Shown here in pieces: positions 6,877 to 54,305 of a stretch of 64,000 nucleotides of DNA. A program made the translations under genes and the position numbers. Position 1 is the stretch's first letter, and every line of letters starts with the position of its first letter. Origin of the DNA: Candidatus Accumulibacter sp. ACC003 (GTDB lineage Bacteria > Pseudomonadota > Gammaproteobacteria > Burkholderiales > Rhodocyclaceae); assembly GCF_907163085.1 (NCBI RefSeq), contig NZ_CAJQTX010000002.1:310001-374000 (forward strand). The letters are read 5' to 3'. The notes under the pieces are model-generated. The model was not told the origin of the DNA, made no database searches, and was given only the letters and a program-made list of their open reading frames with translations.

Positions 6877-8913
6877 ATGACCAGTTCCGTTTCCGCGTCG
6901 TCCGCCGAAGGTGGTGGCGGTATCCCGCGCCTCGTTTTCTATGTCGCGATCGTGTTTTCCGTGTTCCAGCTGGTGACCTCGGCGTTCAGCCCACTGTCGA
7001 GCACCGTCGTACGAGCCGTGCACGTCGGCTTCCTGCTGTTGCTGACCTTCCTCATCCACCCCTGGCGTGGCGGTGCGTACGCCGGCACCAGCGTGCTCGG
7101 CAAGGCCGTCGGCTTCGGCGCTTTCGTCCTGGCCAGCTATCACTGGGTCTTCGAAGCCGAGCTGGTGCAGCGCGCCGGCGAGATGACCGACGCCGACATG
7201 TTCGTCGGCATCGTCACCCTGGTCCTGGTCTTCGAAGCGGCGCGACGGATCATGGGCTTTGCGCTACCGCTGATCTGCCTGTGCTTTCTCGGCTACGCGA
7301 TGTTCGGCGAATATTTTCCGGGCGTCCTGCAGCATCGCGGCTATGGATTCGACCAGATCGTCGGCCAGCTCGCCTTCGGTGCCGAAGGCATCTACGGCAC
7401 GCCGATCTATGTGTCTTCGAGCTACATCTTCCTGTTCATTCTTTTCGGTGCCTTCCTCGAGCAGGCCGGCATGATTCAGCTGTTCACCGATTTTGCGCTC
7501 GGCACGGTCGGTCACACCAAGGGCGGTCCAGCCAAGGTTGCGGTGGTGTCGTCGGGACTGATGGGGACGATCAACGGCTCCGGTGTCGCCAACGTCGTGA
7601 CCACCGGCCAGTTCACGATCCCGCTGATGAAGAAATTCGGCTACCGCGCCGACTTTGCCGGCGCGGTCGAGGCCACCAGTTCGATGGGCGGCCAGATCAT
7701 GCCGCCAGTGATGGGCGCCGTGGCCTTCATCATGGCCGAGACGATCAACGTGCCCTACGTCGACATCGCCAAAGCGGCGGCGATCCCGGCGATGCTCTAC
7801 TTCTTCACGGTCGTCTGGATGGTGCACCTCGAAGCCGGCCGTGCCGGCCTGTTCGGGATGCCCAAGGAGCAATGCCCCGACCCCTGGGTGGCACTGCGCA
7901 AGCGCTGGTACCTGCTGCTGCCTCTGATCAGCCTGGTCTATCTGCTGTTTGCCGGCTTCACGCCGATGTTCTCGGGGATGGTCGGGCTGGCGCTGACGGT
8001 AGTCCTGATCTTCGGCGCCTCGTTCAGCCGCGGCTTGAACGGCACCGCGCTGCGGATGCTGTTCTGGATTGCCCTGGGGCTGGCGTGTTCGGCGTTTGTG
8101 TCGCTGGGCATCATCGCGGTGATCGCCGTGATCGCCACGCTGGCGGTCCTGCTGGCGCCACGCCAGGATGGCCGCGCGACGCTCCGCCTGGCGGTGCAGG
8201 CGCTCGCCGACGGTGCGCTACACGCCTTGCCGGTGGGCGTGGCGTGTGCGCTGGTCGGGGTGATCATCGGCTCGCTGACGCTGACCGGTGGCGCGACGAC
8301 CTTCGCCGGCTACATCATCCAGGTCGGCGAAAGCAGCCTGTTCATGTCGCTGCTGCTGACCATGCTGACCTGCCTGATTCTCGGCATGGGAATCCCGACG
8401 ATTCCCAACTACATCATCACCAGTTCGATCGCCGCGCCAGCGCTGCTCGACCTCGGCGTGCCGCTGATCGTTTCGCACATGTTCGTCTTCTATTTCGGGA
8501 TCATGGCCGACCTGACGCCGCCGGTGGCGCTCGCCGCTTTCGCCGCGGCGCCGATCGCCCAGGAGTCCGGCCTGAAGATCGGCGTCCGCGCCGTGCAGAT
8601 CGCCATCGCCGGCTTCGTCGTCCCGTACATGGCGGTCTATGCGCCGGAACTGATGCTGCAGGGCGACAAAGGCCTCATGGCGACCGCTTACGTGGTGTTC
8701 AAGGCCTTGCTGGCGGTGACCCTCTGGGGAACGGCAGTGGTCGGCTACTTCCATACGCCGATGAACCTCGTCGAACGCGTGCTGGCCTTCGCCGCCGCGT
8801 CGCTGCTGGTGGTTGCACTGCCGATCAGCGACGAGGCGGGTTTTGCTCTCGCGGCAGCCGTCCTCGGCTGGCACGTGTGGCGTTCGCGCCGCCTGGCGCC
8901 GCTGCGCAGCTGA
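6877..8913 (+). CDS. TRAP transporter permease, fused 4TM/12TM subunits (TAXI type)
   Basis: A 678-residue inner-membrane protein in which the small (DctQ-like) and large (DctM-like) TRAP subunits are fused, the arrangement normal for TAXI systems. About sixteen or more hydrophobic helices are visible. GLMGTINGSGVANVVTTGQF, then SSMGGQIMPPVMGAVAF, and later MGIPTIPNYIITSS and ADLTPPVALAAFAAA, are the conserved loops of the DctM half. I chose the ATG at 6877 because CGGAG stands 6 bp before it and an upstream in-frame ATG at 6802 adds only an arginine-rich, non-conserved tail. The protein uses the sodium gradient to import the solute bound by the preceding TAXI protein. It overlaps the DUF1850 gene by one base. 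Confidence 0.92.
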   Translation: MTSSVSASSAEGGGGIPRLVFYVAIVFSVFQLVTSAFSPLSSTVVRAVHVGFLLLLTFLIHPWRGGAYAGTSVLGKAVGFGAFVLASYHWVFEAELVQRAGEMTDADMFVGIVTLVLVFEAARRIMGFALPLICLCFLGYAMFGEYFPGVLQHRGYGFDQIVGQLAFGAEGIYGTPIYVSSSYIFLFILFGAFLEQAGMIQLFTDFALGTVGHTKGGPAKVAVVSSGLMGTINGSGVANVVTTGQFTIPLMKKFGYRADFAGAVEATSSMGGQIMPPVMGAVAFIMAETINVPYVDIAKAAAIPAMLYFFTVVWMVHLEAGRAGLFGMPKEQCPDPWVALRKRWYLLLPLISLVYLLFAGFTPMFSGMVGLALTVVLIFGASFSRGLNGTALRMLFWIALGLACSAFVSLGIIAVIAVIATLAVLLAPRQDGRATLRLAVQALADGALHALPVGVACALVGVIIGSLTLTGGATTFAGYIIQVGESSLFMSLLLTMLTCLILGMGIPTIPNYIITSSIAAPALLDLGVPLIVSHMFVFYFGIMADLTPPVALAAFAAAPIAQESGLKIGVRAVQIAIAGFVVPYMAVYAPELMLQGDKGLMATAYVVFKALLAVTLWGTAVVGYFHTPMNLVERVLAFAAASLLVVALPISDEAGFALAAAVLGWHVWRSRRLAPLRS

Positions 8914-44623: not shown

Positions 44624-45397
44624 TCAGCGGTCGGCGAAGCGGCGAATCAACGCGAAATAGATGCGGTACGGCAAGTGCGCGAGCAGCTTGAGCAGCCATG
44701 TGAAGCGCTTCGGGTAGTGGATCTCGAAAGCGCTGCCGGCAAAGCCGGCGAGCGTCGCCCGCGCCGCCTGTTCGGGTGTCAGCAGCGCCGGCATGGCGAA
44801 GTCGTTTTGGGAAGTCAGCGGCGTCGCCACGAAGCCGGGGTTGATCACCCGGACGCCTATCCCTTTCGGCTGCAGGTCGAGATACAGCGCTTCGGCGAAA
44901 TTGATCAGCGCCGCCTTGGTCGGACCGTAAATCAGCGCTTTCGGCAGGCCTCGATAACCGGCGACGCTGGCGACGAAAGCGATCTGACCGCTGCCCTGCT
45001 GCAGCAGCTGCGGCACGACGCAAGCGGCGAAGGAAACCGCGCCGCCGAAGTTGACGGCGATCATCTGCCGTGCGCGTGCCGTATCGAGCTGCCAGGCACG
45101 CGTCGGCTGGTAGTCGCCGGCGAGGTACAGCGCCAGGTCGATGCCGTCCCACGTCGCCAGCAAGCGATCGCAGGCGGCGTGCAGACTCGCTTCGTCGGCG
45201 GCGTCGCAGGGCAGCAGCAAGGCCCTTCCGCCATGGCCATCACCGGCGACGGCAGCAAGGCCGGCGGCCTTGCGCGCCGACAAGGCGACGCGCGCGCCAC
45301 GCGCCAGCAGCAGCGTGCCGAGCGCCGCGCCAATGCCACTCGAGGCGCCAAGCAGCCAGACGCGCTTGCCTGACCAGTCGTCAATGCGTGCGTTCAT
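44624..45397 (-). CDS. SDR-family oxidoreductase, last gene of the photo-stress-type operon
   Basis: A 257-residue short-chain dehydrogenase. LLGASSGIGAALGTLLL binds NAD(P), LYLAGDY replaces the usual NNAG, Ser in FVASVAGYRG and Tyr/Lys in YGPTKAAL are catalytic, and INPGFVATPLT follows. It ends with basic, hydrophobic residues (WLLKLLAHLPYRIYFALIRRFAD) that may touch the membrane, which suits a lipid substrate. It begins 4 bp after the DUF3833 gene. SDR genes of this type recur beside DUF1365, CFA and FAD-oxidase genes in light- and singlet-oxygen-responsive clusters. The reaction is unknown. Confidence 0.85.
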   Translation of the reverse strand: MNARIDDWSGKRVWLLGASSGIGAALGTLLLARGARVALSARKAAGLAAVAGDGHGGRALLLPCDAADEASLHAACDRLLATWDGIDLALYLAGDYQPTRAWQLDTARARQMIAVNFGGAVSFAACVVPQLLQQGSGQIAFVASVAGYRGLPKALIYGPTKAALINFAEALYLDLQPKGIGVRVINPGFVATPLTSQNDFAMPALLTPEQAARATLAGFAGSAFEIHYPKRFTWLLKLLAHLPYRIYFALIRRFADR

Positions 45398-45401
45398 CGC
45401 C

Positions 45402-45944
45402 TCAGCGCTTGCTGAAACTCAGCGTCACTTCGCCGAGATCGAAGCCAAATTTGCGCATCTTCGAGCGGTTGAGCATCACCTTGTCGTCGATCAGGAACAT
45501 CCAGTCGTCGAAGTCGACGTTCCACACCCGGCCATCGATCGGCAAGGCCAGCACGTAGCGCCAGCGCAGGACGTTGCCCGCGGCTTCACCCTGCGCTTCG
45601 CCGACGACGTCATCGGCGCGACCGACGTAGCGCGCCGCGTCAACCCGGGTGATCGTCCACAGCCGCCGCGAAGTCGTTCCGTCCGACCATGAGAACTTTT
45701 CGTCGAGCGTGCCGACATCGACGCCATCGCGCTTTTCCCAGCGGGCGTCGATCAGTACGTGAAAGCGTTTGACCACCGCCCCCGAGCGATCCTGGAACAT
45801 TCCCCAGCCGTCGATCGTTCCGTCGAAGTAACGCGCCAGGTCGAGCACCGGCTGTTCGGCGCGGTAGCGCTCGACCGGCAGGTTCGAACAGCCACCGAGA
45901 CCGACAATGCCGCAAGCGAAACACGCCAGGCACAGGTTTTTCAT
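45402..45944 (-). CDS. DUF3833 family lipoprotein
   Basis: A 180-residue protein with a lipoprotein signal (CGIVGLGGCSN; lipidated Cys at residue 20). The mature part contains LARYFDGTIDGWGMFQDRSGAVVKRF and DVGTLDEKFSWSDGTTSRRLW, the DUF3833 core, then VDFDDWMFLIDDKVMLNRSKMRKFGFDLGEV. It probably sits in the outer membrane facing the periplasm. Its ATG overlaps the MFS stop by 4 bp. DUF3833 members usually occur in this same gene set; function is unknown. Confidence 0.88.
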   Translation of the reverse strand: MKNLCLACFACGIVGLGGCSNLPVERYRAEQPVLDLARYFDGTIDGWGMFQDRSGAVVKRFHVLIDARWEKRDGVDVGTLDEKFSWSDGTTSRRLWTITRVDAARYVGRADDVVGEAQGEAAGNVLRWRYVLALPIDGRVWNVDFDDWMFLIDDKVMLNRSKMRKFGFDLGEVTLSFSKR

Positions 45945-47230
45945 GACCAACCCTCCAGAGTAGTGCGCCAGCGCCAGGCGAGCAGCGCCGCCAGCGTCTT
46001 GAACAGTAAAGGCAGCAGGCAATAAATGGCGGCGAGACCGCTGCTGGTCGCGGCGACTCCCGGCTGATAGCCAACGACATCGAGCAATGGCAGCGACAGA
46101 CCGGCAGCCAGCGCCAGGTTGAGTTTTGCAACCAGATTCCACCACCCGAAGTAGGCGCCAGCGTGCGCCACTCTGCCGCCCGCTGGCGCCGCGTCACCGC
46201 GCTGCTCGGAGAGGTCGGCGAGCAACGCCGCCGGCAAGGTCAGGTCAGCGCCGAGCGCGGCGCCCGAGAGCAGGCAAACGGCGGCAAAAGGCCAGACGTC
46301 GCCAGCGCCCAGACCCCAGGCCCAGGCGAAGGAAACGACTGCCAGCAGCATCGCAGCGACCCAGGTGCGCACGCGACCGAAGCGCCTTGCGGCGATCACC
46401 CACAGCGGCAGGAAGACGACACCGCTGACGAAGTAAAGCGCCAAAAAAGCACCGCTCCAGGCTTCGGCGTTGAGGACGTCGGCGACGTAGAACAGGACCA
46501 GCGTCGCCGGTAAGGCGGCGGCGATGCCATTGACCACGAACACCGCCAGCAAGCGGCGAAAGCGGCCGTCGGCGGCTACTCCGCGCAGGTCGCCGACGAC
46601 ACTGCTGCTGGCCGGCAGGCGCGCTGCCGATGGCGGCGAGAACGACAGCGTGCACGCAGCCAGTGCCAGCAGGAGCAGCGGGAACAGTTGCGCCAGCGCC
46701 GCCAGGCCGCCAGCCAGATCGCTGGCGATCAAACCCGGCAGCGCCGCCGCCAGGACGACGCCGAGCAGACCAAAGCCCTCGCGACTGGCCGTCAGGCGCG
46801 TCCGCTCGCCGGCGTCACGACCGAGTTCGGCGCCCCAGGCCTGATAGGCGACGCTGGCCAGCGAAAAGCCGAAGTAGGTGAGCAGCAGCGAAGCGAGCAA
46901 CCACCACCCTGCGCCGCTGGCCGGCGGCTGCAGCAGCGCCAACATGCCGAGCGCCAGACACGGCAGCGCCAGCACGATCAGTCGCTGGCGATTCGCCGCC
47001 CGGTCGCTCCAGGCACCGAGCAGCGGGTCGATGCCGGCGTCAAGCAGGCGCGCACCCAACAGCAGCGCGCCGAGCACGCCCAGGCTCATGCCGGCGGCTT
47101 CGGCGTACAGGCGCGGCACATGCACATACACCGGCAAGGCGGCCATTGCCAGTGGCAGACCGAGCGCCCCGTAGGCGAGAAGCTGCCAGCGCGGCAGGTC
47201 GACTACCGGGGCGCTATCTGGCGACGACAC
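45941..47230 (-). CDS. MFS transporter (GPH-like)
   Basis: A 429-residue permease with about twelve helices. The sequence LLLGARLLDAGIDPLLGAWSDR, with the family's conserved acidic loop, and AYQAWGAELGRDAGERTRLTASREGF resemble the sugar-cation symporter (GPH) branch and the MelB-type loops. Transporters of this type accompany DUF1365/CFA/FAD-oxidase genes, where they may flip or export a lipid or its precursor; this is inference. It starts 2 bp after the chalcone-isomerase-fold gene stops. Confidence 0.85.
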   Translation of the reverse strand: MSSPDSAPVVDLPRWQLLAYGALGLPLAMAALPVYVHVPRLYAEAAGMSLGVLGALLLGARLLDAGIDPLLGAWSDRAANRQRLIVLALPCLALGMLALLQPPASGAGWWLLASLLLTYFGFSLASVAYQAWGAELGRDAGERTRLTASREGFGLLGVVLAAALPGLIASDLAGGLAALAQLFPLLLLALAACTLSFSPPSAARLPASSSVVGDLRGVAADGRFRRLLAVFVVNGIAAALPATLVLFYVADVLNAEAWSGAFLALYFVSGVVFLPLWVIAARRFGRVRTWVAAMLLAVVSFAWAWGLGAGDVWPFAAVCLLSGAALGADLTLPAALLADLSEQRGDAAPAGGRVAHAGAYFGWWNLVAKLNLALAAGLSLPLLDVVGYQPGVAATSSGLAAIYCLLPLLFKTLAALLAWRWRTTLEGWS

Positions 47231-47232
47231 GC

Positions 47233-47757
47233 TCAGAGCTCCGGACGCTTGAGCAACGCCGCGCGCAGCGCTGGGCTGCGGCTGCGCGAATCGAGCCAGA
47301 TGGCGAAGAACGCGCGGGCGAATTCGGCGTCGGCTATTTCGCCGATCGGCACGCCGCCGTAGAAGAACGCGGCGCCTCGCCCGGGGTAATGGACGCCGAC
47401 AATCGTCTCACCCTCCTGGACATTCGGTAAAACGCGCTGCAGCTCGGCCTGCCAGCGCTGCAACTGCGCCTCGTCAGCGCCGAGGCGGCGCATTTCGCCG
47501 ACACTGCTCTGCACCAGCCGCTCACGTGCGATATCGCGCCGGTACTCGAGCTGCAGCGCGCTTGGCGCGTCGGCCGGGAAAGCCGCGCCCGGCGGCGCGG
47601 CAACCCACAGCGTGGCGCGATAGAGCGCCACGCCAAACCAGCTCATTTCACCACTGCCCCACTGCCGCCAGCCGCTATCGCTGGCACGCAGCGCCTCGGG
47701 TAGGGCATGGACCAAGGTGCTACCAGCAAGCAGCAACAGCACGAGGAGTTTCTTCAT
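47233..47757 (-). CDS. Chalcone isomerase-fold family protein, secreted
   Basis: A 174-residue protein with a signal peptide (MKKLLVLLLLAGSTLVHA). The core ASDSGWRQWGSGEMSWFGVALYRATLWVA, then LEYRRDIARERLVQSSVGEMRRLG and GETIVGVHYPGRGAAFFYGG, matches bacterial chalcone-isomerase-like proteins. Members of this fold in plants bind fatty acids, so a lipid-binding periplasmic role fits the operon. Catalytic flavonoid activity is not expected. The ATG at 47757 overlaps the CFA gene stop by 4 bp; sequence upstream in frame lies inside the CFA gene. Confidence 0.82.
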   Translation of the reverse strand: MKKLLVLLLLAGSTLVHALPEALRASDSGWRQWGSGEMSWFGVALYRATLWVAAPPGAAFPADAPSALQLEYRRDIARERLVQSSVGEMRRLGADEAQLQRWQAELQRVLPNVQEGETIVGVHYPGRGAAFFYGGVPIGEIADAEFARAFFAIWLDSRSRSPALRAALLKRPEL

Positions 47758-49010
47758 CGCGCGTGTGCCAGCTCGAACTGCATGACGTCGGTGGCGCCGC
47801 TGTTGAAACCCGCCTGGCAATAGGCGAGATAGAAGCGCCACAAGCGGCGGAAGCGTTCGTCGAAACCTTGTGCGGCAATCGCCGGCCACTGCTGCTCGAA
47901 GTTGACGGACCATTCGGCGAGCGTCCGCGCGTAATCGCGACCGAAAGCAAAAGAGTCGCGAACGTCGAGTCCGGCGCGCGCCGCGCGCTTGCCGAAAACG
48001 CTCGGGCTGGGGAGCATGCCACCGGGGAAGACGTGCTGTTGAATGAAATCGGTGCCGCGCCGGTAACGGGCGAACAAGTCGTCACGGATGGTAATGCTCT
48101 GCACGACGGCGCGCCCGCCCGGCGCCAGCAAGCGCTGCAGGGTCGCGAAATACGTCGGCCACCAGCGTTCGCCGACGGCTTCGAACATCTCGATCGAAAC
48201 GATGTGGTCGAAGCGTTCGCCGCGTTCGGATCCTTCGCCAAGGAGTTCACGATAGTCGCGCAGTTCGATCTGCACCTGCTGCTCGACGCCGGCCAGGCGC
48301 ATGCGCTGGCCGGCAAACTGGTGCTGCGCCGGCGACAAGGTCAGGCCGACGACGTGCAAGCCCGCCTCACGCGCGGCGGTTTCGGCAAAGGCACCCCAGC
48401 CGCAACCGATTTCCAGCACCCGCTGGCCGCGACGGGCGTCGAGCTGCTTGATGATTCGCCGATACTTGGCGAGCTGCGCGGCGGCCATCGAGCGCGGCGC
48501 GTCGCTGCTGTAGAGGGCGCTCGAATAACTCATCGTCGGGTCGAGCCAGAGACGATAGAAATCGTTGCCAAGGTCGTAGTGGGCGATGATGTTGCGCCGC
48601 GCGCCGGCGCGCGTGTTGGCGTTCAGCAGGTGCCGCAGGCGCGCACTCAGCAGTCCCCACCAATGACCATAGACAGCCTGCGACAGCGACTGGCGGTTGT
48701 TGGCCAACAGCGTCAGCAGCGCGGTGAGGTCCGGGCTATGCCAGTGACCGTCGATCCAGGCCTCGGCGAAGCCGACGTCGCCGCGCTCGATAACCCGGTC
48801 GAAAGCGGACCAGCTGGCAATCTCGAGCAGCGCGCCAACGTCGCCGTCCGCCAGTTGACCGAAGCGCAGCCGGTCGCCGTCGGGCAAGCGCACTTCGAGC
48901 GCCCCGTGAGCAATTTTGTCGAGCAGGGCGAGTACCGCCCGCGCGCTGCGCGGCATGCGCTTGGCGGCAATCGCCGCCGGGAAAGTGAGCGTATTTTCGC
49001 TGGCATTCAT
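47754..49010 (-). CDS. cfa: Cyclopropane-fatty-acid synthase family methyltransferase
   Basis: A 418-residue SAM-dependent enzyme that methylenates or methylates unsaturated acyl chains of membrane phospholipids. The N-terminal lipid-binding part is followed by NIIAHYDLGNDFYRLWLDPTMSYSSALY and the SAM site VLEIGCGWGAFAETAAREAG. SIEMFEAVGERWWPTYFATLQRLLAPGG and FIQQHVFPGGMLPS are core CFA positions. In operons with an FAD oxidase and DUF1365 the related enzyme in Rhodobacter (UfaM-type) makes methylated fatty acids on the way to furan fatty acids, so the product here may not be a plain cyclopropane. Overlaps both neighbours by 4 bp. Confidence 0.92.
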   Translation of the reverse strand: MNASENTLTFPAAIAAKRMPRSARAVLALLDKIAHGALEVRLPDGDRLRFGQLADGDVGALLEIASWSAFDRVIERGDVGFAEAWIDGHWHSPDLTALLTLLANNRQSLSQAVYGHWWGLLSARLRHLLNANTRAGARRNIIAHYDLGNDFYRLWLDPTMSYSSALYSSDAPRSMAAAQLAKYRRIIKQLDARRGQRVLEIGCGWGAFAETAAREAGLHVVGLTLSPAQHQFAGQRMRLAGVEQQVQIELRDYRELLGEGSERGERFDHIVSIEMFEAVGERWWPTYFATLQRLLAPGGRAVVQSITIRDDLFARYRRGTDFIQQHVFPGGMLPSPSVFGKRAARAGLDVRDSFAFGRDYARTLAEWSVNFEQQWPAIAAQGFDERFRRLWRFYLAYCQAGFNSGATDVMQFELAHAR

Positions 49011-49789
49011 CGGGTCGTTTCCTCAAGTGGAGGTTCGGGTTTTCTGAAAAAGGGGACGCGCTTGCACCACAGCTTCAGTGCCTGCCAGTGAATTCGCAGG
49101 ACGATGCCAAGGGTCAGCAACGGCAAGTGGAAGAAGGCTTTCAACAGCGGTCCGCTGGCGAGCGCTGCGGCCTTGCCGGAAATCGCCGTGTGCAGCAAGT
49201 CGCCGGCCGCGTCGCCATAATCGATGCGCGTCAGGCGCCTGGCCGCGGCACCGTCGGCTCCGGCACGCCAGTGGAAGCGAAAGCGGTAATGACCGGCGAC
49301 GTCGATGAACGGCGAAACATGAAAGACCTTGCGCTGCTCGAGCGTCTCACCGTCGCGAATCGGTCGCCCGTCGGCGTGCGCCAGCAGGTAGTTGTGGCGC
49401 TCGCCGAAGGTGTTGCTCACCTCGGCGAGAACGGCGAGCAGTTGTCCGGCGCGGTCGTGACAGAACCACAAGCTGATCGGATTGAAGACAAAGCCGAGCA
49501 GGCGCGGAAAGCACTGCAGCCAGATCTCTCCGTCGGCGCTGATCCCGGCGCGCTGCAGCAGACTCTTGATCCACGGCAGCGGATGCGAGCCGTCGCGCGC
49601 GCCGTGGTCGGCGAAGTGGAAGCTGAAGAGATTCCAGCGGTTGACCGAGAACAACGCGCTGGCCGCTTGTTCAACGCGCGCGACCGGCAGCAGGCAGAAG
49701 TAAACCGGGTAGACAAAGCGGTTGACCGCCGGCCGCAGGCGGTGGTGCATGACCTGCCCGAAAAAGAGCCTGGCCGGGGTCGTGTTCAT
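49007..49789 (-). CDS. DUF1365 domain-containing protein
   Basis: A 260-residue protein. ARLFFGQVMHHRLRPAVNRFVYPVYFCLL is the family start. NLFSFHFADHGARDGSHPLPWI, then RLLGFVFNPISLWFCHDRAG and EVSNTFGERHNYLL, are the conserved core, with VFHVSPFIDVAGHYRFRF following. A hydrophobic tail (FFHLPLLTLGIVLRIHWQALKLW) suggests membrane contact. DUF1365 genes nearly always sit between a CFA-type methyltransferase and an FAD-dependent oxidase, as here; the protein is thought to take part in the same fatty-acid modification. Starts at the ATG at 49789, overlapping the FAD-oxidase stop by 4 bp. Confidence 0.9.
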   Translation of the reverse strand: MNTTPARLFFGQVMHHRLRPAVNRFVYPVYFCLLPVARVEQAASALFSVNRWNLFSFHFADHGARDGSHPLPWIKSLLQRAGISADGEIWLQCFPRLLGFVFNPISLWFCHDRAGQLLAVLAEVSNTFGERHNYLLAHADGRPIRDGETLEQRKVFHVSPFIDVAGHYRFRFHWRAGADGAAARRLTRIDYGDAAGDLLHTAISGKAAALASGPLLKAFFHLPLLTLGIVLRIHWQALKLWCKRVPFFRKPEPPLEETTR

Positions 49790-51150
49790 GCCACGAGTTG
49801 CGCGCTGCGCGCGGCTCCAGGCAGCAACGGGGCAGCGCCGTCGGCATCCTGCCACGGCGCACGGCAGCCCATGGCGTTGGCGACTTGCAGCGCCGACTTG
49901 AGGCCGTCTTCGTGGAAACCGTAGCCATTCCACGCGCCGCAGAACCAAACTCCGTGCGCACCGGAAATCGCCGGCAGACCACGTTGCGCGGTGACCGCCG
50001 CGCGGTCGAAAATCGGGTGCTGGTAGTCGAATTCGGCGATCACCCGCTCGGCCACCGGCTCGCGCTGCGGATTCAACGAGACCATCAGGGGCGTTTTGAA
50101 CGGCAGCGGCTGCAGGCGATTGATCAGATACGAGACGCTGACCGGACGCAGCTCGCGGTGCTCACCGCCGTGGCCACTGCCCTGGCGACTTTCCTGGCCG
50201 CTCGACAGATAGTTCCACGCCGACCACAGCGCCGGCGAACGCGGCAGCAGCGCGGCATCGGTGTGCAGCACGGCGCGGTTTGGCGCGTAGCGGATGGCGG
50301 CAAGCAGGCGACTCTCGGCGGACGTCGCCGCCTGGCCAAGGATCGCCAAGGCCTGATCGCTATGGCAGGCAAGGACGACCTGGTCGTAGTGCTCGACGCT
50401 GCTATCCGTATGCAGCAGCAGGCCCGCCGCAGTACGTTGCAGGGCGCGCACCGGCGTCGCCAGGCGAACGTCGTCGAGGGCGGCGGCGAGTTTTCTGACG
50501 TATTCGCGACCGCCACCACGCACCGTTCGCCACAGTGGCCGATCGAAAACCTGCAGCAGGCCGTGATTGCGGCAGAAGCTGACGAAGCTGGCCAGCGGGT
50601 AGTCGAGCATCGTCTGGGTCGGGCACGACCAGATCGCCGCGGCCATTGGCAGCAGGTACCAGTCGGCGAAGGGACGCGAATAGCCGCCCATGGCGAGAAA
50701 TTCGCGCAGACTTAGCTGGTCTTCGGGATGACTGACGATCCAGGCGACGCTGTCGCGGTTGAAGCGCACGATGTCGGACAGCATCCGCCAGAAGTCCGGC
50801 CGCAGGAGGTTCCTTTTCTGTCCGAAAAGTGTCGCCAGGCTGCTGCCCGCCCATTCCAGCCGTGGCTCGTCGAGGCTGACGGCGAAGGACATTTCGCTGT
50901 CCACGCTGACGACTCCGAGGTGGGCAAACATCGCCGTCAGATGCGGGTAGGTCCTGGTGTTGTAGACCAGAAAACCGGTGTCCACCGGGTGACAAACGCC
51001 GTCGAGCGTCACATCGACGGTATGGGTGTGGCCGCCGAGCGTGTCGGCCGCCTCAAAGAGCGTCACCTGATGTTTCTGCGACAGTAGCCAGGCGCTGGCC
51101 AGACCCGAAATCCCGGCGCCGACTACGGCGACCCGTTGTGCGCCGCGCAT
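49786..51150 (-). CDS. FAD-dependent oxidoreductase (amine-oxidase/desaturase-like)
   Basis: A 454-residue flavoprotein. VAVVGAGISGLASAWLLSQ and FEAADTLGGHTHTV bind the ADP part of FAD. PVDTGFLVYNTRTYPHLTAMF and ADWYLLPMAAAIWSCPTQTMLDYPLASF are conserved in this group, and GVWFCGAWNGYGFHEDGLKSAL closes the FAD site. The group is related to phytoene-desaturase-like enzymes. With the CFA-type gene it probably oxidises modified acyl chains. The ATG at 51150 has AAGGAGAT upstream; the frame extends beyond it into folE2 without family similarity. Starts 17 bp after folE2. Confidence 0.9.
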   Translation of the reverse strand: MRGAQRVAVVGAGISGLASAWLLSQKHQVTLFEAADTLGGHTHTVDVTLDGVCHPVDTGFLVYNTRTYPHLTAMFAHLGVVSVDSEMSFAVSLDEPRLEWAGSSLATLFGQKRNLLRPDFWRMLSDIVRFNRDSVAWIVSHPEDQLSLREFLAMGGYSRPFADWYLLPMAAAIWSCPTQTMLDYPLASFVSFCRNHGLLQVFDRPLWRTVRGGGREYVRKLAAALDDVRLATPVRALQRTAAGLLLHTDSSVEHYDQVVLACHSDQALAILGQAATSAESRLLAAIRYAPNRAVLHTDAALLPRSPALWSAWNYLSSGQESRQGSGHGGEHRELRPVSVSYLINRLQPLPFKTPLMVSLNPQREPVAERVIAEFDYQHPIFDRAAVTAQRGLPAISGAHGVWFCGAWNGYGFHEDGLKSALQVANAMGCRAPWQDADGAAPLLPGAARSAQLVA

Positions 51151-51167
51151 CTCGATCTCCTTGCCGT

Positions 51168-51968
51168 TCAGGCGTTTTCGCCGCTGATCTCGGCGTACGC
51201 CGAATGATTGTGAATCGACTCGAAGTTCTCCGATTTCACGGTCCATTGCGCGATTCGTTCGTCTTTCATCAGGCGCAGCGCGATATCGCGAACCAGGTCT
51301 TCGACGAACTTCGGGTTGTCGTAGGCGCGCTCGGTAACCCATTTCTCGTCCGGCCGCTTGAGCAGTCCGAAGACCTCGCACGAAGCCTCTTCCTCGGCCA
51401 GCCGCAGCAGCTCTTCGGGGCTCATCCCCGAACGCAGGCAGGCGCGGATGGTGATGTGCGAACGCTGGTTATGTGCGCCGTAGTCGCTGATCTCCCTGGA
51501 ACACGGGCACAGGCTGGTCACCGGCGCAACGATCTCCAGCGTCAATTCGCTGCGCTCGCCGGTGCGCTTTTCGACGATCATCCGCACGTCGTAGTCGAGC
51601 AGACTCGCGGCACTCGACACCGGTGCCTTCTTGGCGATGAAGGCGGGAAAAGCGAGTTCGATCTCACCGCTGTCGGCTTCCAGTCGCCGCAACATTTCGT
51701 CGAGCATGCGCAGCAGACGGTTGATGTTGAGCGGCGCGCGCGGCTGCTCGAGCAACTCGACGAAACGCGACATGTGCGTTCCCTTGACCGTCGGCGGCAA
51801 CCCCACCGACATCGACAGACTGGCAACGGTGTGCTGCACCTTGCCGGCGGCGTCGAGCAATGCCAGCGGATAGCGCAGGCCCTTGACGCCGACCTTGTCG
51901 ATCGCCAGTTGCCGGAGGTCGGGGCGGGCCTGCATGTCGGGAAGGAAAAAATGTTCGGGTGCATTCAT
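51168..51968 (-). CDS. folE2: GTP cyclohydrolase FolE2 (type IB)
   Basis: A 266-residue GTP cyclohydrolase of the FolE2 type, converting GTP to 7,8-dihydroneopterin triphosphate for folate and pterin cofactors. HFFLPDMQARPDLRQLAIDKVGVKGLRYP opens the protein. VTSLCPCSREISDYGAHNQRSHITI carries the active-site cysteine and histidine, EASCEVFGLLKRPDEKWVTERAYDNP and SENFESIHNHSAYAEISG are signatures. The ATG at 51968 follows CAGGAGAAC. GTP cyclohydrolase genes are also found in LitR-type light-induced gene sets, where pterins may feed photolyase or tetrahydrofolate needs; that link is from memory. Confidence 0.95.
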   Translation of the reverse strand: MNAPEHFFLPDMQARPDLRQLAIDKVGVKGLRYPLALLDAAGKVQHTVASLSMSVGLPPTVKGTHMSRFVELLEQPRAPLNINRLLRMLDEMLRRLEADSGEIELAFPAFIAKKAPVSSAASLLDYDVRMIVEKRTGERSELTLEIVAPVTSLCPCSREISDYGAHNQRSHITIRACLRSGMSPEELLRLAEEEASCEVFGLLKRPDEKWVTERAYDNPKFVEDLVRDIALRLMKDERIAQWTVKSENFESIHNHSAYAEISGENA

Positions 51969-52026
51969 GGCTGGTTCTCCTGGGAAGCGAAGCGATAATT
52001 GGGCGATGGCGGAGGCGAAAAGATGA

Positions 52027-52587
52027 TCACGGCTTGCCGAGGAATTCTTCGATCCTGGCGAGCAGCTCCGGGTCATCCGGCTTGACGCGGCTGTCGAAGC
52101 TCAGCACCTGCTTGCCGCTGCGGTCGATCAGGTACTTGTGGAAGTTCCATTGCGGCTCTTTGCCGCTCGCTTTGGCGAGTTGCGCGAAGAAGGGACTGGC
52201 ATTTACGCCAAGCACCGTCGCCTTGGCAAACATTGGGAACTGCACGCCGTAGGTCAGCCGGCAGAAGTCGGCGATTTCCTGATTGCTGCCGGGCTCCTGC
52301 TCGCCGAAGTCGTTCGACGGGAAGCCGACGACGACCAGGCCGCGATCCCTGAGTCTGGCGTAGAGCTTTTCCAGGCCGTCGTATTGCGAGGTGAAACCGC
52401 AGTAGCTGGCGGTATTGACCACCAGCAGTACCCTGCCCTGCCATTGGCACAAGGACTGATTCTTCTGGCCCTGCAGCGAAGCGAAGGCGTGATCGAGGAG
52501 CGGCGGACACGCCGCCGCTGCCGCCGCCGGCAGCGCACCGAAAGCGCCCAGGGCCAGAGCAAGGGCGGGGAAAAGCGACAGCGGCAT
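52027..52587 (-). CDS. Glutathione peroxidase family protein, periplasmic
   Basis: A 186-residue thiol peroxidase. A signal peptide (MPLSLFPALALALGAFGALPAAAAA) puts it in the periplasm, unlike most bacterial BtuE/Gpx proteins. NTASYCGFTSQYDGLEKLYARL carries the peroxidatic Cys, FPSNDFGEQEPGSNQEIADFC and WNFHKYLIDRSGKQV supply the other catalytic positions (Gln/Trp/Asn). It should reduce lipid or hydrogen peroxides using thioredoxin-like donors. It is the first gene of the nine-gene operon, and the TGTCC(A/T)GGACA sites lie upstream. The ATG at 52587 has GGAG upstream. Confidence 0.92.
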   Translation of the reverse strand: MPLSLFPALALALGAFGALPAAAAAACPPLLDHAFASLQGQKNQSLCQWQGRVLLVVNTASYCGFTSQYDGLEKLYARLRDRGLVVVGFPSNDFGEQEPGSNQEIADFCRLTYGVQFPMFAKATVLGVNASPFFAQLAKASGKEPQWNFHKYLIDRSGKQVLSFDSRVKPDDPELLARIEEFLGKP

Positions 52588-52665
52588 GGCGATCTCCTGG
52601 GCAAGGGCAACTGGCTTCGACTGGCCGCTGGAACAAGCAGCGGCGTATCGAGTGAAGGCAAGACG

Positions 52666-52676
52666 TGTCCAGGACA
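52666..52676. promoter_or_regulatory. Operator-like site 1, TGTCCAGGACA
   Basis: An 11-bp palindrome with a single central base, about 80 bp upstream of the gpx start codon. It is inside the predicted gpx leader, or overlaps a second promoter. Confidence 0.6.
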
Positions 52677-52749
52677 GCTGGCAGATCACGCCTTTTGCAG
52701 CCGACCTGGGCGGCAAGTCGGCGCGGATTCGGCAGGGCTGCGTCAATAT

Positions 52750-52762
52750 TTGTCCTGGACAA
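52750..52762. promoter_or_regulatory. Operator-like site 2, TTGTCCTGGACAA
   Basis: The longest copy, 13 bp of perfect symmetry apart from the central base. It lies just downstream of the predicted gpx-operon start of transcription, a place where a bound protein would block RNA polymerase. On the plus strand TGGACA (52756-52761) is 19 bp before GATACT (52781-52786), a spacing seen in MerR-regulated promoters. Confidence 0.65.
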
Positions 52763-52778
52763 TAAAGAGACAAATCAA

Positions 52779-52807
52779 AAGATACTGACGGGGCAGGCAT
52801 CTGTCAA
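52779..52807 (-). promoter_or_regulatory. Sigma-70 promoter of the gpx-folE2-...-SDR operon
   Basis: On the minus strand TTGACA (52807-52802) and TATCTT (52784-52779) are 17 bp apart, a near-consensus promoter. Transcription should start near 52772. Operator-like site 3 lies just upstream of the -35 and site 2 just downstream of the start. Confidence 0.65.
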
Positions 52808-52823
52808 TGAATTTTTTTAGCTT

Positions 52824-52834
52824 TGTCCAGGACA
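52824..52834. promoter_or_regulatory. Operator-like site 3, TGTCCAGGACA
   Basis: Same palindrome as sites 1, 2 and 4. It stands 16 bp upstream of the gpx-operon -35 box, separated from it by an A/T tract. Confidence 0.6.
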
Positions 52835-53286
52835 CTCTGCTCGTCGCACGGCGGCTGCAGGCCGCTGGCCCCGAGCGAGATGGCGTTTGCGGCGTGGCCG
52901 ACCAGAACGGTTCTCAGCGCAGGCCGCGCCGCCTGTTCGGGCGGTCGACCGGCGTGCCTCGACGCGCACACTCAAGGCAGATCCGCCGCGGCGAAAATCG
53001 GCGATCGATGGAAAACGCCACGCCACCGGCGTCAAGTCCGACCGGCTGCCAGCGCCTTTTTCGGTCGCAGGATCGAGGTGGATTGCAGCGGCCATGACGC
53101 TTGCCTCGCGTGCCTGCATGTCCGCCCGTGTAGCCCAAAGCGTCAGAACGGCCACGTCGAATACGTGCGGCGATCATGGCTGGCCATTCGTGCATCGCCG
53201 CCCGTCGGCGTATCGCCCGGCCCGCGAGCGCTGGCGTTTTCAGAGGTGCTCACGTGGCTCGCAAGAATGTCGACGAAAGCCGATGT

Positions 53287-53297
53287 TGTCCTGGACA
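53287..53297. promoter_or_regulatory. Operator-like site 4, TGTCCTGGACA, before the MerR/B12 gene
   Basis: The fourth copy lies about 80 bp upstream of the regulator's ATG. Its right half (TGGACA) could be the -35 of the regulator's own promoter, with TAAGTT 17 bp on as a weak -10. This would allow autoregulation. Confidence 0.6.
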
Positions 53298-53375
53298 TCA
53301 TGAGAGATCCAGATTAAGTTGTCGCCTCAATTGCGCCACATCTCGCGCGCCATTCAGGACTTTGCCCAAGACACC

Positions 53376-54305
53376 ATGAATAGTCACCCCGCCATGAACA
53401 TTAGCGCGGTCGAGCGCGATACCGGTCTCGGCAAGGATACGCTGCGCGTCTGGGAGCGTCGTTACGGCTTCCCGCGGCCGGCTCGCGACGAGCATGGCGA
53501 GCGTGTATACCCTGCCGATCAGGTCGAACGACTACGCTTGATGAAACGTTTGATCGATCAGGGGCACCGCCCCGGTCGGCTGTGCGCCGCCAGCGAGCAA
53601 GAGTTTGCCGAACTGTGCAGCGCCAGCGCGTCGCCAGCGCGAAACGACGGCGAACGCGGCGAGGGCTTGATCAGCCAGACGCTCGAACTGGTCAAGGCCA
53701 ATGACCTGCCGGCGCTGCGCCGGCTGCTCAAGCAAGCGATGCTACGCCTGGGCTTGCAGCGTTTCGTCATCGACGTCGTCGCGCCGCTCAATGACGGCAT
53801 TGGCGAAGCGTGGATGAGCGGCAAGTTCGCGGTCTTCGAGGAACACCTCTATACCGAGCAGATCAAGTCGCTGCTGCGCCAGGCGATCGGCGATCTGCCG
53901 ACCGGCGGCGGCCGTCCGCGCATCGTGCTGACGACGCCACCCGATGAACAACACGTGCTCGGCGTCTTGATGGCCGAAGCCTTGCTCGTTCTTGATGGCG
54001 CGACGTGCATTTCGCTGGGCACCCAGACGCCACTGGTTGACATCCGGATGGCGTCGCAGGCGCACCGCGCCGACATCGTCGCGCTGTCGCTTTCGGCGGC
54101 GTTTCCGGGACGACAGGTCGCCGCGCTGGTCAGCCAGTTACGACAGATGCTGCCCGCTGACGTCGAACTGTGGGTTGGTGGTGCCGGCGCTCAGCGCGCG
54201 ACACCGGAGCCGGGCATCGTCGTGCTGGCGACTTTGCAGGCGGCGCTCGACGCCCTCGCCGCCTGGCAAAACGCTCGTTCCGGCGCACCTGGAGTCAATC
54301 GCTGA
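53376..54305 (+). CDS. MerR-family regulator with B12-binding light-sensor domain (LitR/CarH type)
   Basis: A 309-residue regulator. Residues 7-70 are a MerR-type winged helix (ISAVERDTGLGKDTLRVWERRYGFPRP, then GERVYPADQVERLRLMKRLIDQGHRPG). Residues about 95-170 form the four-helix cap with Trp146, Glu156 and His157 in WMSGKFAVFEEH, the W-x9-EH signature of CarH-type photoreceptors. Residues 180-300 are the cobalamin-binding Rossmann domain; His193 in PPDEQHVLG is the expected lower cobalt ligand. Such proteins bind adenosylcobalamin in the dark, repress as tetramers and fall apart in light. I use the ATG at 53376; an in-frame TTG lies at 53319 and another ATG at 53394. It diverges from the nine-gene operon it probably controls. 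Confidence 0.92.
   Translation: MNSHPAMNISAVERDTGLGKDTLRVWERRYGFPRPARDEHGERVYPADQVERLRLMKRLIDQGHRPGRLCAASEQEFAELCSASASPARNDGERGEGLISQTLELVKANDLPALRRLLKQAMLRLGLQRFVIDVVAPLNDGIGEAWMSGKFAVFEEHLYTEQIKSLLRQAIGDLPTGGGRPRIVLTTPPDEQHVLGVLMAEALLVLDGATCISLGTQTPLVDIRMASQAHRADIVALSLSAAFPGRQVAALVSQLRQMLPADVELWVGGAGAQRATPEPGIVVLATLQAALDALAAWQNARSGAPGVNR

Follow-up and report, generated by a model that had tools for sequence, protein, structure and literature searches.

A putative B12-dependent light switch: the regulator LitR and its paired operators before a membrane-lipid operon in Candidatus Accumulibacter and relatives

The window analysed here is a stretch of 64,000 nucleotides from Candidatus Accumulibacter sp. 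ACC003 (positions 310,001-374,000 of contig 2 in a 5.39-Mb, 13-contig assembly), and it contains nine packed minus-strand genes facing a divergent plus-strand gene for LitR, a MerR-type B12-binding regulator. We consider it probable that this locus is a B12-dependent light switch, in which LitR would serve as an adenosylcobalamin (AdoB12)-dependent dark repressor of a regulon for furan-fatty-acid synthesis and lipid repair. The genes, the operators, the operator spacing and the link to LitR across genomes are direct results of the computation. A sequence-only reading of the stretch had tied a LitR/CarH-type B12 regulator to the operon, and this tie is now backed by evidence from the DNA, namely the operators, their co-occurrence with LitR, their pairing and their register with the promoter.

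The 788-bp intergenic region between gpx and litR holds four TGTCCWGGACA palindromes, which had gone unmentioned in the sequence-only reading; 0.55 would be expected with one mismatch, and four were reached in 1 of 100 shuffles. The palindrome count in the window alone is modest evidence, and the cross-genome comparison carries the operator claim. The regulator gene and the regulatory elements of the region are as follows.

53376..54305, + strand: litR, MerR-type B12-binding regulator of the LitR/CarH family (B12 type), 309 amino acids (Pfam MerR_1, B12-binding_2)
53287..53297, no strand: palindrome TGTCCTGGACA, 78 bp before the litR start codon
52824..52834, no strand: upstream operator palindrome TGTCCAGGACA, centre 52829, 22 bp (two 11-bp units) before the -35
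52779..52807, - strand: operon promoter TTGACA (52807-52802), N17, TATCTT (52784-52779), from sequence reading and measured spacing
52751..52761, no strand: downstream operator palindrome TGTCCTGGACA, centre 52756, 73 bp from the upstream palindrome and 51 bp from the -35 start
52666..52676, no strand: further palindrome TGTCCAGGACA between the promoter and gpx, lacking the flanking TT/AA and outside the position weight matrix (PWM) list at score 8

Six exact copies of TGTCCWGGACA occur in the 5.39-Mb genome, so that two lie outside the intergenic region. The fifth copy stands upstream of a lipocalin gene; the sixth (C4:89630) was set aside as an operator since it falls inside a PAS-kinase reading frame. 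Exactly two operator pairs were found in this genome, one before the operon and one, with a distance of 74 bp, before the lipocalin gene, in whose promoter no TTGACA was seen by eye at the 11 or 22 register. The palindrome nearest to litR makes autoregulation of the regulator gene possible.

The same palindrome recurs upstream of litR in relatives. Of 150 sampled family genomes, 60 including the window's own gave a LitR match (E up to 1e-20), and the comparison set comprised 109 LitR-orthologue loci, 29 from this search and 80 named loci; the thirtieth family-genome locus, L009, is the window itself and was left out. A de novo palindrome search covering up to 1.2 kb upstream of litR in these loci ranked TTGTC-N3-GACAA first, with occurrences in 78 of 109; the next ranks were other windows of the same motif, and the first unrelated palindromes were present in 27 loci. 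Scored with a PWM at a threshold of 8, the palindrome TTTGTCYWRGACAAA gave 221 sites in 103 of 110 litR-upstream regions, against 0 in shuffled and 1 in reversed controls. The PWM was trained on part of the data it scored, and the following genome counts are independent of it. The strict pattern TTGTCYWRGACAA is found in 58 of the 60 genomes with LitR (124 sites) versus 12 of the 90 without a LitR match (19 sites), and a reversed control pattern in 13 of 60 (16 sites) and 24 of 90 (27 sites), respectively. Within the 20 genera that hold genomes of both kinds, the strict site is present in 27/27 LitR-positive versus 4/29 LitR-negative genomes. Operator pairs, defined by looser sites with centres 62-76 bp apart, occur in 45/60 versus 1/90 genomes (0/150 for the control), the sole LitR-negative genome with such a pair being G068. 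Twelve site regions were fetched from LitR-negative genomes: two, both on short contigs (L143, L145), lie at operon genes, and nine of the remaining ten sites fall inside frames drawn by a simple gene caller, as do the single sites of G101 and G136. As a separate observation, genome G052 (L159, L162-L165) contains five operator-like palindromes and no LitR match; an identical 15-base stretch in four of these suggests a repeat dispersed through intergenic DNA.

The paired palindromes stand on either side of a promoter read on the operon strand. In 32 of the 110 regions a TTGAC[AG] on this strand begins precisely 11 bp past the centre of the upstream palindrome, and in 23 the distance is precisely 22 bp; another 14 cases are spread over other distances of up to 60 bp, and on the litR strand no TTGAC[AG] stands at 11 or 22 bp. 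TATCTT follows after N17 in 30 of the 55 in-register regions, and in the 22-bp class the intervening unit reads TnnACA in 16 of 23. Tandem 11-bp TnnACA units occur in 45/110 regions (60 cases versus a shuffled mean of 1.25), and three units in a row in 15/110 (0 in shuffled sequence). From the -35 start to the centre of the downstream palindrome the distance is 52 bp in 51 of 54 cases; in the window it is 51 bp. Among 86 neighbouring palindrome pairs at 50-100 bp, 74 fall at 62-64 bp (42) or 72-75 bp (32), two spacing classes that differ by about one 11-bp unit; the helical phase that we suggest for the palindromes rests on these two classes and on no clean period. CarH operators are built of 11-bp units repeated in tandem, each with a TnnACA core, and the array can embed the -35 (PMC9304148). 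Across the loci, the operator accordingly looks like a CarH-type 11-bp array with added palindromes; a purely palindromic operator was rejected, as 11-bp direct repeats are also present.

By its sequence the regulator belongs with the B12-type LitR/CarH family. Its start is most likely the ATG at 53376, giving 309 residues, though the mechanical open reading frame (ORF) begins at 53319. The N-terminus is a MerR helix-turn-helix (HTH; MerR_1, E=1.6e-13), followed by a four-helix B12-binding_2 domain (PF02607) above cut-off and a Rossmann B12-binding domain (PF02310) at 28.3 bits, under the cut-off of 32.1. Residues 3-274 align with Thermus CarH (phmmer E=3.4e-29) at about 32 percent identity. 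An alignment of 111 rows (the 109 loci plus the window LitR twice, with no row dropped and the stop-flagged rows L016, L027, L036 and L038 kept) showed that R24, W26, E27, R28, R29 and Y30 of the RxWERRY recognition helix are invariant in 111/111 rows. The same holds for W146, E156, H157, H193, G215 and P219, which make up W-x9-EH, the lower-axial His, GxxW and GxxxP. Numbered from the ATG at 53376, these include the Trp146/Glu156/His157 signature and the His of DEQHVLG (His193) already recognised in the sequence-only reading. The published light-receptor signature is GxxW, EH, GxxH and GxxxP (PMC11796333). The host genome encodes a cobalamin adenosyltransferase, and a search for a reaction-centre gene (Photo_RC) in the genome found none, on which host phototrophy was set aside. 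Judged by these residues, LitR likely binds B12 and likely senses light; its lit state is expected to differ from that of Thermus CarH because the light-state His of CarH is present in none of the aligned rows. Among the named LitR loci, the seven closest ones (65-78 percent identity) come from six Candidatus Accumulibacter metagenome-assembled genomes (MAGs) and one Pseudomonadota MAG.

Coordinates and Pfam identities agree with the earlier description of nine packed minus-strand genes facing the regulator, and gene-end mapping recovered all ten genes where they had been placed. From the short-chain dehydrogenase/reductase (SDR) at the operon's end to gpx, the junctions measure +4, -4, +2, -4, -4, -4, +17 and +58 bp, so that the largest gap, at the gpx-folE2 junction, is 58 bp, as had been stated. 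The operon genes are listed below in the order of reading.

52027..52587, - strand: gpx, glutathione peroxidase, by its sequence of the Cys type (GSHPx, PF00255, E=3.2e-32)
51168..51968, - strand: folE2, GTP cyclohydrolase FolE2 (GCHY-1, PF02649, E=1.5e-86; NCBIfam FolE2 equivalog 273.2 bits, above the cut-off of 215)
49786..51150, - strand: flavin adenine dinucleotide (FAD)-dependent amine-oxidase-type oxidoreductase, candidate UfaD (fatty acyl desaturase) (Amino_oxidase, PF01593; PF13450)
49007..49789, - strand: DUF1365 protein, candidate UfaO (furan-forming oxygenase) (PF07103, E=4.3e-75)
47754..49010, - strand: CMAS-family S-adenosylmethionine (SAM) methyltransferase, candidate UfaM (PF02353, E=4.2e-78)
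47233..47757, - strand: chalcone-isomerase-fold (CHI) protein, candidate fatty-acid binder (PF16036, Chalcone_3)
45941..47230, - strand: MFS_2 transporter (PF13347, E=1.1e-53)
45402..45944, - strand: DUF3833 protein, whose sequence reads as containing a lipobox-like LGGC (PF12915, E=2.5e-62)
44624..45397, - strand: SDR (adh_short), the operon's last gene (PF00106, E=6.3e-36)

Two further genes flank the locus. A flavodoxin gene (PF00258, 54677-55219, + strand) follows litR on the same strand at a distance of about 370 bp, and a second short-chain dehydrogenase gene (PF00106, 43654-44316, - strand) lies about 300 bp past the operon end, again on the same strand.

The window proteins were compared by tblastn with the 109 loci; the 29 family-genome loci offer only about 1.5 kb of flank, and 57 of the 80 named loci extend at least 9 kb upstream of litR. 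The core of FAD, DUF1365, CMAS, CHI, MFS, DUF3833 and SDR genes is complete in 46 of these 57 loci and all nine genes are present in 14, with FolE2 in 29 and Gpx in 24. The seven-gene core is also carried by plasmid pAZKH of Azoarcus sp. KH32C. Thus the gene combination, which had been taken as unusual, does not stand as such: the core adjoins litR in 46/57 loci, and the operon recurs as a regular module of this group whose leading genes, gpx and folE2, vary in presence. Other plasmid loci present different neighbourhoods. On an Eleftheria terrae plasmid (L168), litR is divergent from a fasciclin gene across two operators 62 bp apart, and the genes downstream encode an error-prone polymerase, a Y-family polymerase and ImuA; the Caballeronia plasmid loci L171 and L172 (LitR 43-45 percent identical) carry a weaker site or two and gave no operon match.

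Sites away from litR suggest control in trans. Genome G018, assigned to the window's genus, holds a complete nine-gene operon that starts near C1:568.5 kb and is preceded by two operators spaced 74 bp; its litR (C1:2,403,766) lies 1.8 Mb away. Beside that litR lies an FAD-gene fragment matched in two pieces (L204, G018:C1:2396000-2406000, approximately 7186-7601), perhaps a trace of a former divergent arrangement. We further sampled 23 distal regions from LitR-positive genomes, among the matches listed, and 14 of them (L119, L121, L122, L123, L126, L127, L130, L132, L134-L138 and L140) stand at the core operon or at recurrent gene types, as assigned by Pfam on one or a few members per cluster and by BLAST clustering for the rest. 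The neighbours include lipocalin (L121, L130), fasciclin (L122, L126, L134), gpx (L135), DUF3429 alone or in SDR-DUF3429-UbiB or DUF3429-UbiB sets (L123, L130, L132, L136) and DNA photolyase (L137), with the photolyase-related DPRP near the sites in L123, L127 and L130. In L122 and L123 the longest ORF covers the site with its N-terminal portion, ahead of the Pfam domain, and a later true start was assumed; for L127, where the DUF3429 gene is uncalled, the assignment is by likeness to L123. Three regions (L128, L129, L133) lie inside unrelated reading frames and are chance matches; the other six comprise L120, L124, L125, L131 and L139 at other genes and L141 beside litR. The sites of L124 and L125, from two genomes of one genus, adjoin a gene for a PAS-LytTR regulator, with genes for a CO-dehydrogenase-type flavoprotein and XdhC/CoxI nearby, and they possibly provide light input to another regulator.

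The predicted products of the operon suggest a lipid theme. UfaM, which we take to be a member of the CMAS family, has a candidate in the operon methyltransferase, whose score against the NCBIfam Cfa equivalog is 255.8 bits, under the cut-off of 400. UfaM, a SAM-dependent fatty acyl methylase, acts in Rhodobacter together with UfaD, which is predicted to bind FAD, and UfaO, which contains DUF1365, to turn vaccenyl chains into furan fatty acid (PMC7380195). The methylase, FAD and DUF1365 genes of the window are adjacent with 4-bp overlaps and fit UfaM, UfaD and UfaO at family level only; the likeness to the Rhodobacter set drawn in the sequence-only reading holds at the level of Pfam families. 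The CHI-fold protein, which likely bears an export signal, was modelled with AlphaFold2 at a pLDDT of 90.2; its best match in the Protein Data Bank (PDB) is the fatty-acid-binding AtFAP1 of Arabidopsis (4doo, E=3.8e-7, TMq 0.62), with chalcone isomerases close behind. The DUF3833 model (pLDDT 91.4) is a ten-strand beta barrel, perhaps calycin-like, whose PDB matches are weak and spread over several barrel folds including lipocalins (TMq 0.60 at best). Gpx likewise likely has an N-terminal export signal. Because a lipocalin gene is the second target of a paired operator, lipid handling at the envelope would be the simplest reading of the operon theme.

Collectively, these data suggest the following mechanism, for which we infer AdoB12 binding, the light response, repression, the oligomer state and the lipid product. 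In the dark, LitR with adenosylcobalamin would oligomerise and bind a composite operator, in which the palindrome is followed by one or two CarH-type direct-repeat units of 11 bp that end with the -35 TTGACA, and in which a second palindrome stands some 52 bp past the -35 start, probably on the same helix face. The oligomer would thereby clamp the sigma-70-type promoter TTGACA-N17-TATCTT, and sites before litR itself and before the distant lipocalin gene may be bound as well. Light would break the Co-C bond, the oligomer would fall apart and the operon would be switched on, and its products would remodel and repair the membrane. The UfaM-, UfaD- and UfaO-like enzymes may make methylated or furan fatty acids, Gpx may reduce lipid hydroperoxides, the CHI-fold, DUF3833 and lipocalin proteins may bind or carry lipids at the envelope, and FolE2 may feed folate or pterin synthesis. 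A fuller version, plausible if tentative, holds that a mostly betaproteobacterial B12-photoreceptor lineage combines the palindrome, an 11-bp array ending in the -35 and, about 52 bp further down from the -35 start and in helical phase, a second palindrome; a single dark-state oligomer would then clamp or loop the promoter. Its photoproduct would differ from that of Thermus CarH, and its regulon would join furan-fatty-acid synthesis with envelope lipid binders (lipocalin, CHI-fold, DUF3833), fasciclins and photolyases.

Several observations weigh against LitR as a light-governed repressor with this operator layout. The NCBIfam CarH model gives LitR 137.9 bits, under its cut-off of 400; the Gly of GxxH is Asp in the window LitR and is Gly in 8/111 rows only; and a His directly after Trp146 is found in 0/111 aligned rows. 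In-register TTGAC[AG] is missing from 55/110 regions, and the window itself shows the 22-bp register with a degenerate middle 11-bp unit and no tandem pair at 11 bp. A scan for the period of the spacings peaks at 10.75 bp (R 0.77), yet reaches 0.68 at 12 bp. By the pattern used, 15 of the 60 LitR-positive genomes are without an operator pair, and two (G021, G065) are without a strict single site, G021 having a pair by the looser pattern. At three Accumulibacter loci (L043-L045) litR is present but the flank that was fetched contains no member of the nine-gene set, and L045 has no operator site; nor was an operator found in the 8 kb examined around the host's photolyase. The 109 loci were drawn from two overlapping collections and are hence non-independent, and the Fisher p of 7e-27 for co-occurrence of TTGTCYWRGACAA with LitR is uncorrected for descent.

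Some of these points favour other readings. LitR might sense the AdoB12 level or redox through the same repressor and operators, with light incidental in the turbid wastewater sludge in which the host lives. The replacement of the GxxH Gly in 103/111 rows speaks for this, as does the missing His, which ligates cobalt in light-exposed Thermus CarH and is present in many, not all, CarH proteins (PMC9304148). We nevertheless regard this sensor as unlikely, given the photolyase (L137) and DPRP (L123, L127, L130) among the distal neighbours and the presence of LitR in Rhodocyclus species, which are phototrophs. The same missing ligand would suit a LitR that needs a separate photoreceptor, in the manner of the Pseudomonas class II LitR, which is reported to lack a B12 Rossmann domain and to be under the control of a short LOV protein, and whose target genes are of the same kind (PMC9758184); in another source class II LitR is called AdoB12-dependent (PMC11417400). 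Such an arrangement appears quite improbable here: class II is said to keep only the four-helix bundle (PMC9758184), whereas the window LitR has both B12-binding parts and the invariant lower-ligand His, and a Pseudomonas-type operator was set aside because no T(G/A)TACA-N12-TGTACA exists in the 788-bp intergenic region on either strand.

That the palindromes belong to another regulator and are sited near litR by chance is very hard to reconcile with the distribution of strict sites (58/60 versus 12/90 overall, 27/27 versus 4/29 within mixed genera), even though LitR-DNA binding is a prediction and sites occur in 12/90 genomes lacking a LitR match. The regions from those genomes add to this, with two at operon genes and nine of the ten others in called frames; moreover, the half-site (T)GGACA fits the CarH core TnnACA (PMC9304148), and the 11-bp register is that of CarH. 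An answer of the operon to singlet oxygen via sigmaE/ChrR, as in Rhodobacter, may be judged no less remote. Two points speak for it. In Rhodobacter, sigmaE drives the furan-fatty-acid genes. Their products rise there without ChrR (PMC7380195). Against it, the operon has a conserved sigma-70-like promoter instead, and a sigmaE/ChrR promoter was set aside because the intergenic region before the operon contains no TGATC-N16-18-CGTA, a motif taken from Vibrio cholerae (PMC5241685). We retain the AdoB12-dependent dark repressor as the preferred reading.

Relatives of this system have been described. LitR control of ufaM operons is already known in Pseudomonas, in a class II, LOV-coupled form: a LitR-controlled cluster there holds phrB, SDR, FAD oxidoreductase and ufaM genes, and folE is weakly light-induced (PMC9758184). 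LitR/CarH proteins have been reported to act as light regulators in a range of non-phototrophs (PMC9758184), and light control, which the sequence-only reading had called unexpected in a non-phototroph, has with these reports and the Pseudomonas LitR-ufaM cluster lost its strangeness. The window LitR resembles the class II regulators PplR/PmlR of Pseudomonas putida and P. mendocina as a predicted LitR-family repressor with SDR, FAD oxidoreductase and UfaM targets. It differs from them in its full set of B12 residues and its Rossmann domain with the His of that module, in its operator (theirs is TGTACA-N12-TGTACA), and in an operon that is without phrB and contains CHI, MFS, DUF3833, gpx and folE2. 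With CarH of Thermus thermophilus and myxobacteria (class I LitR) it shares the MerR HTH, the two-part B12 module, W-x9-EH and the lower-ligand His; the 11-bp TnnACA units of CarH, which can embed the -35 (PMC9304148), recur across the related loci, though not as a tandem pair in the window. Unlike Thermus CarH it has no His after the Trp and has Asp for Gly in GxxH; the operators are distinguished by the added palindromes and a second operator beyond the -10, and the putative targets in this window are membrane-lipid rather than carotenoid genes. The SAM methylase, FAD desaturase and DUF1365 oxygenase recall the ChrR-controlled Ufa pathway of Rhodobacter sphaeroides and R. palustris (PMC7380195), with putative LitR control in place of the anti-sigma/extracytoplasmic function (ECF) sigma pair and, unlike Rhodobacter, with all three Ufa-type genes in one operon together with CHI-fold, MFS, DUF3833, SDR, folE2 and gpx. 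In the open-licence literature we found no description of the B12-type regulator with this operon, of the composite paired operator or of the trans targets.

In conclusion, the proposed regulon would join B12 photoreception and furan-fatty-acid defence against singlet oxygen, including in relatives of a key wastewater organism, and the bacteria that carry it are mostly non-phototrophs. The analysis supplies an exact operator, a promoter and candidate regulon members, namely lipocalin, fasciclin, DUF3429, SDR, UbiB/ABC1 and photolyase, and its predictions are testable in cultured relatives such as Azoarcus sp. KH32C and Rhodocyclus. For optogenetics, LitR offers a naturally occurring candidate for a light repressor whose operator layout is new, and the CHI-fold and DUF3833 envelope proteins gain a concrete hypothesis, that they may take part in the handling of modified lipids.

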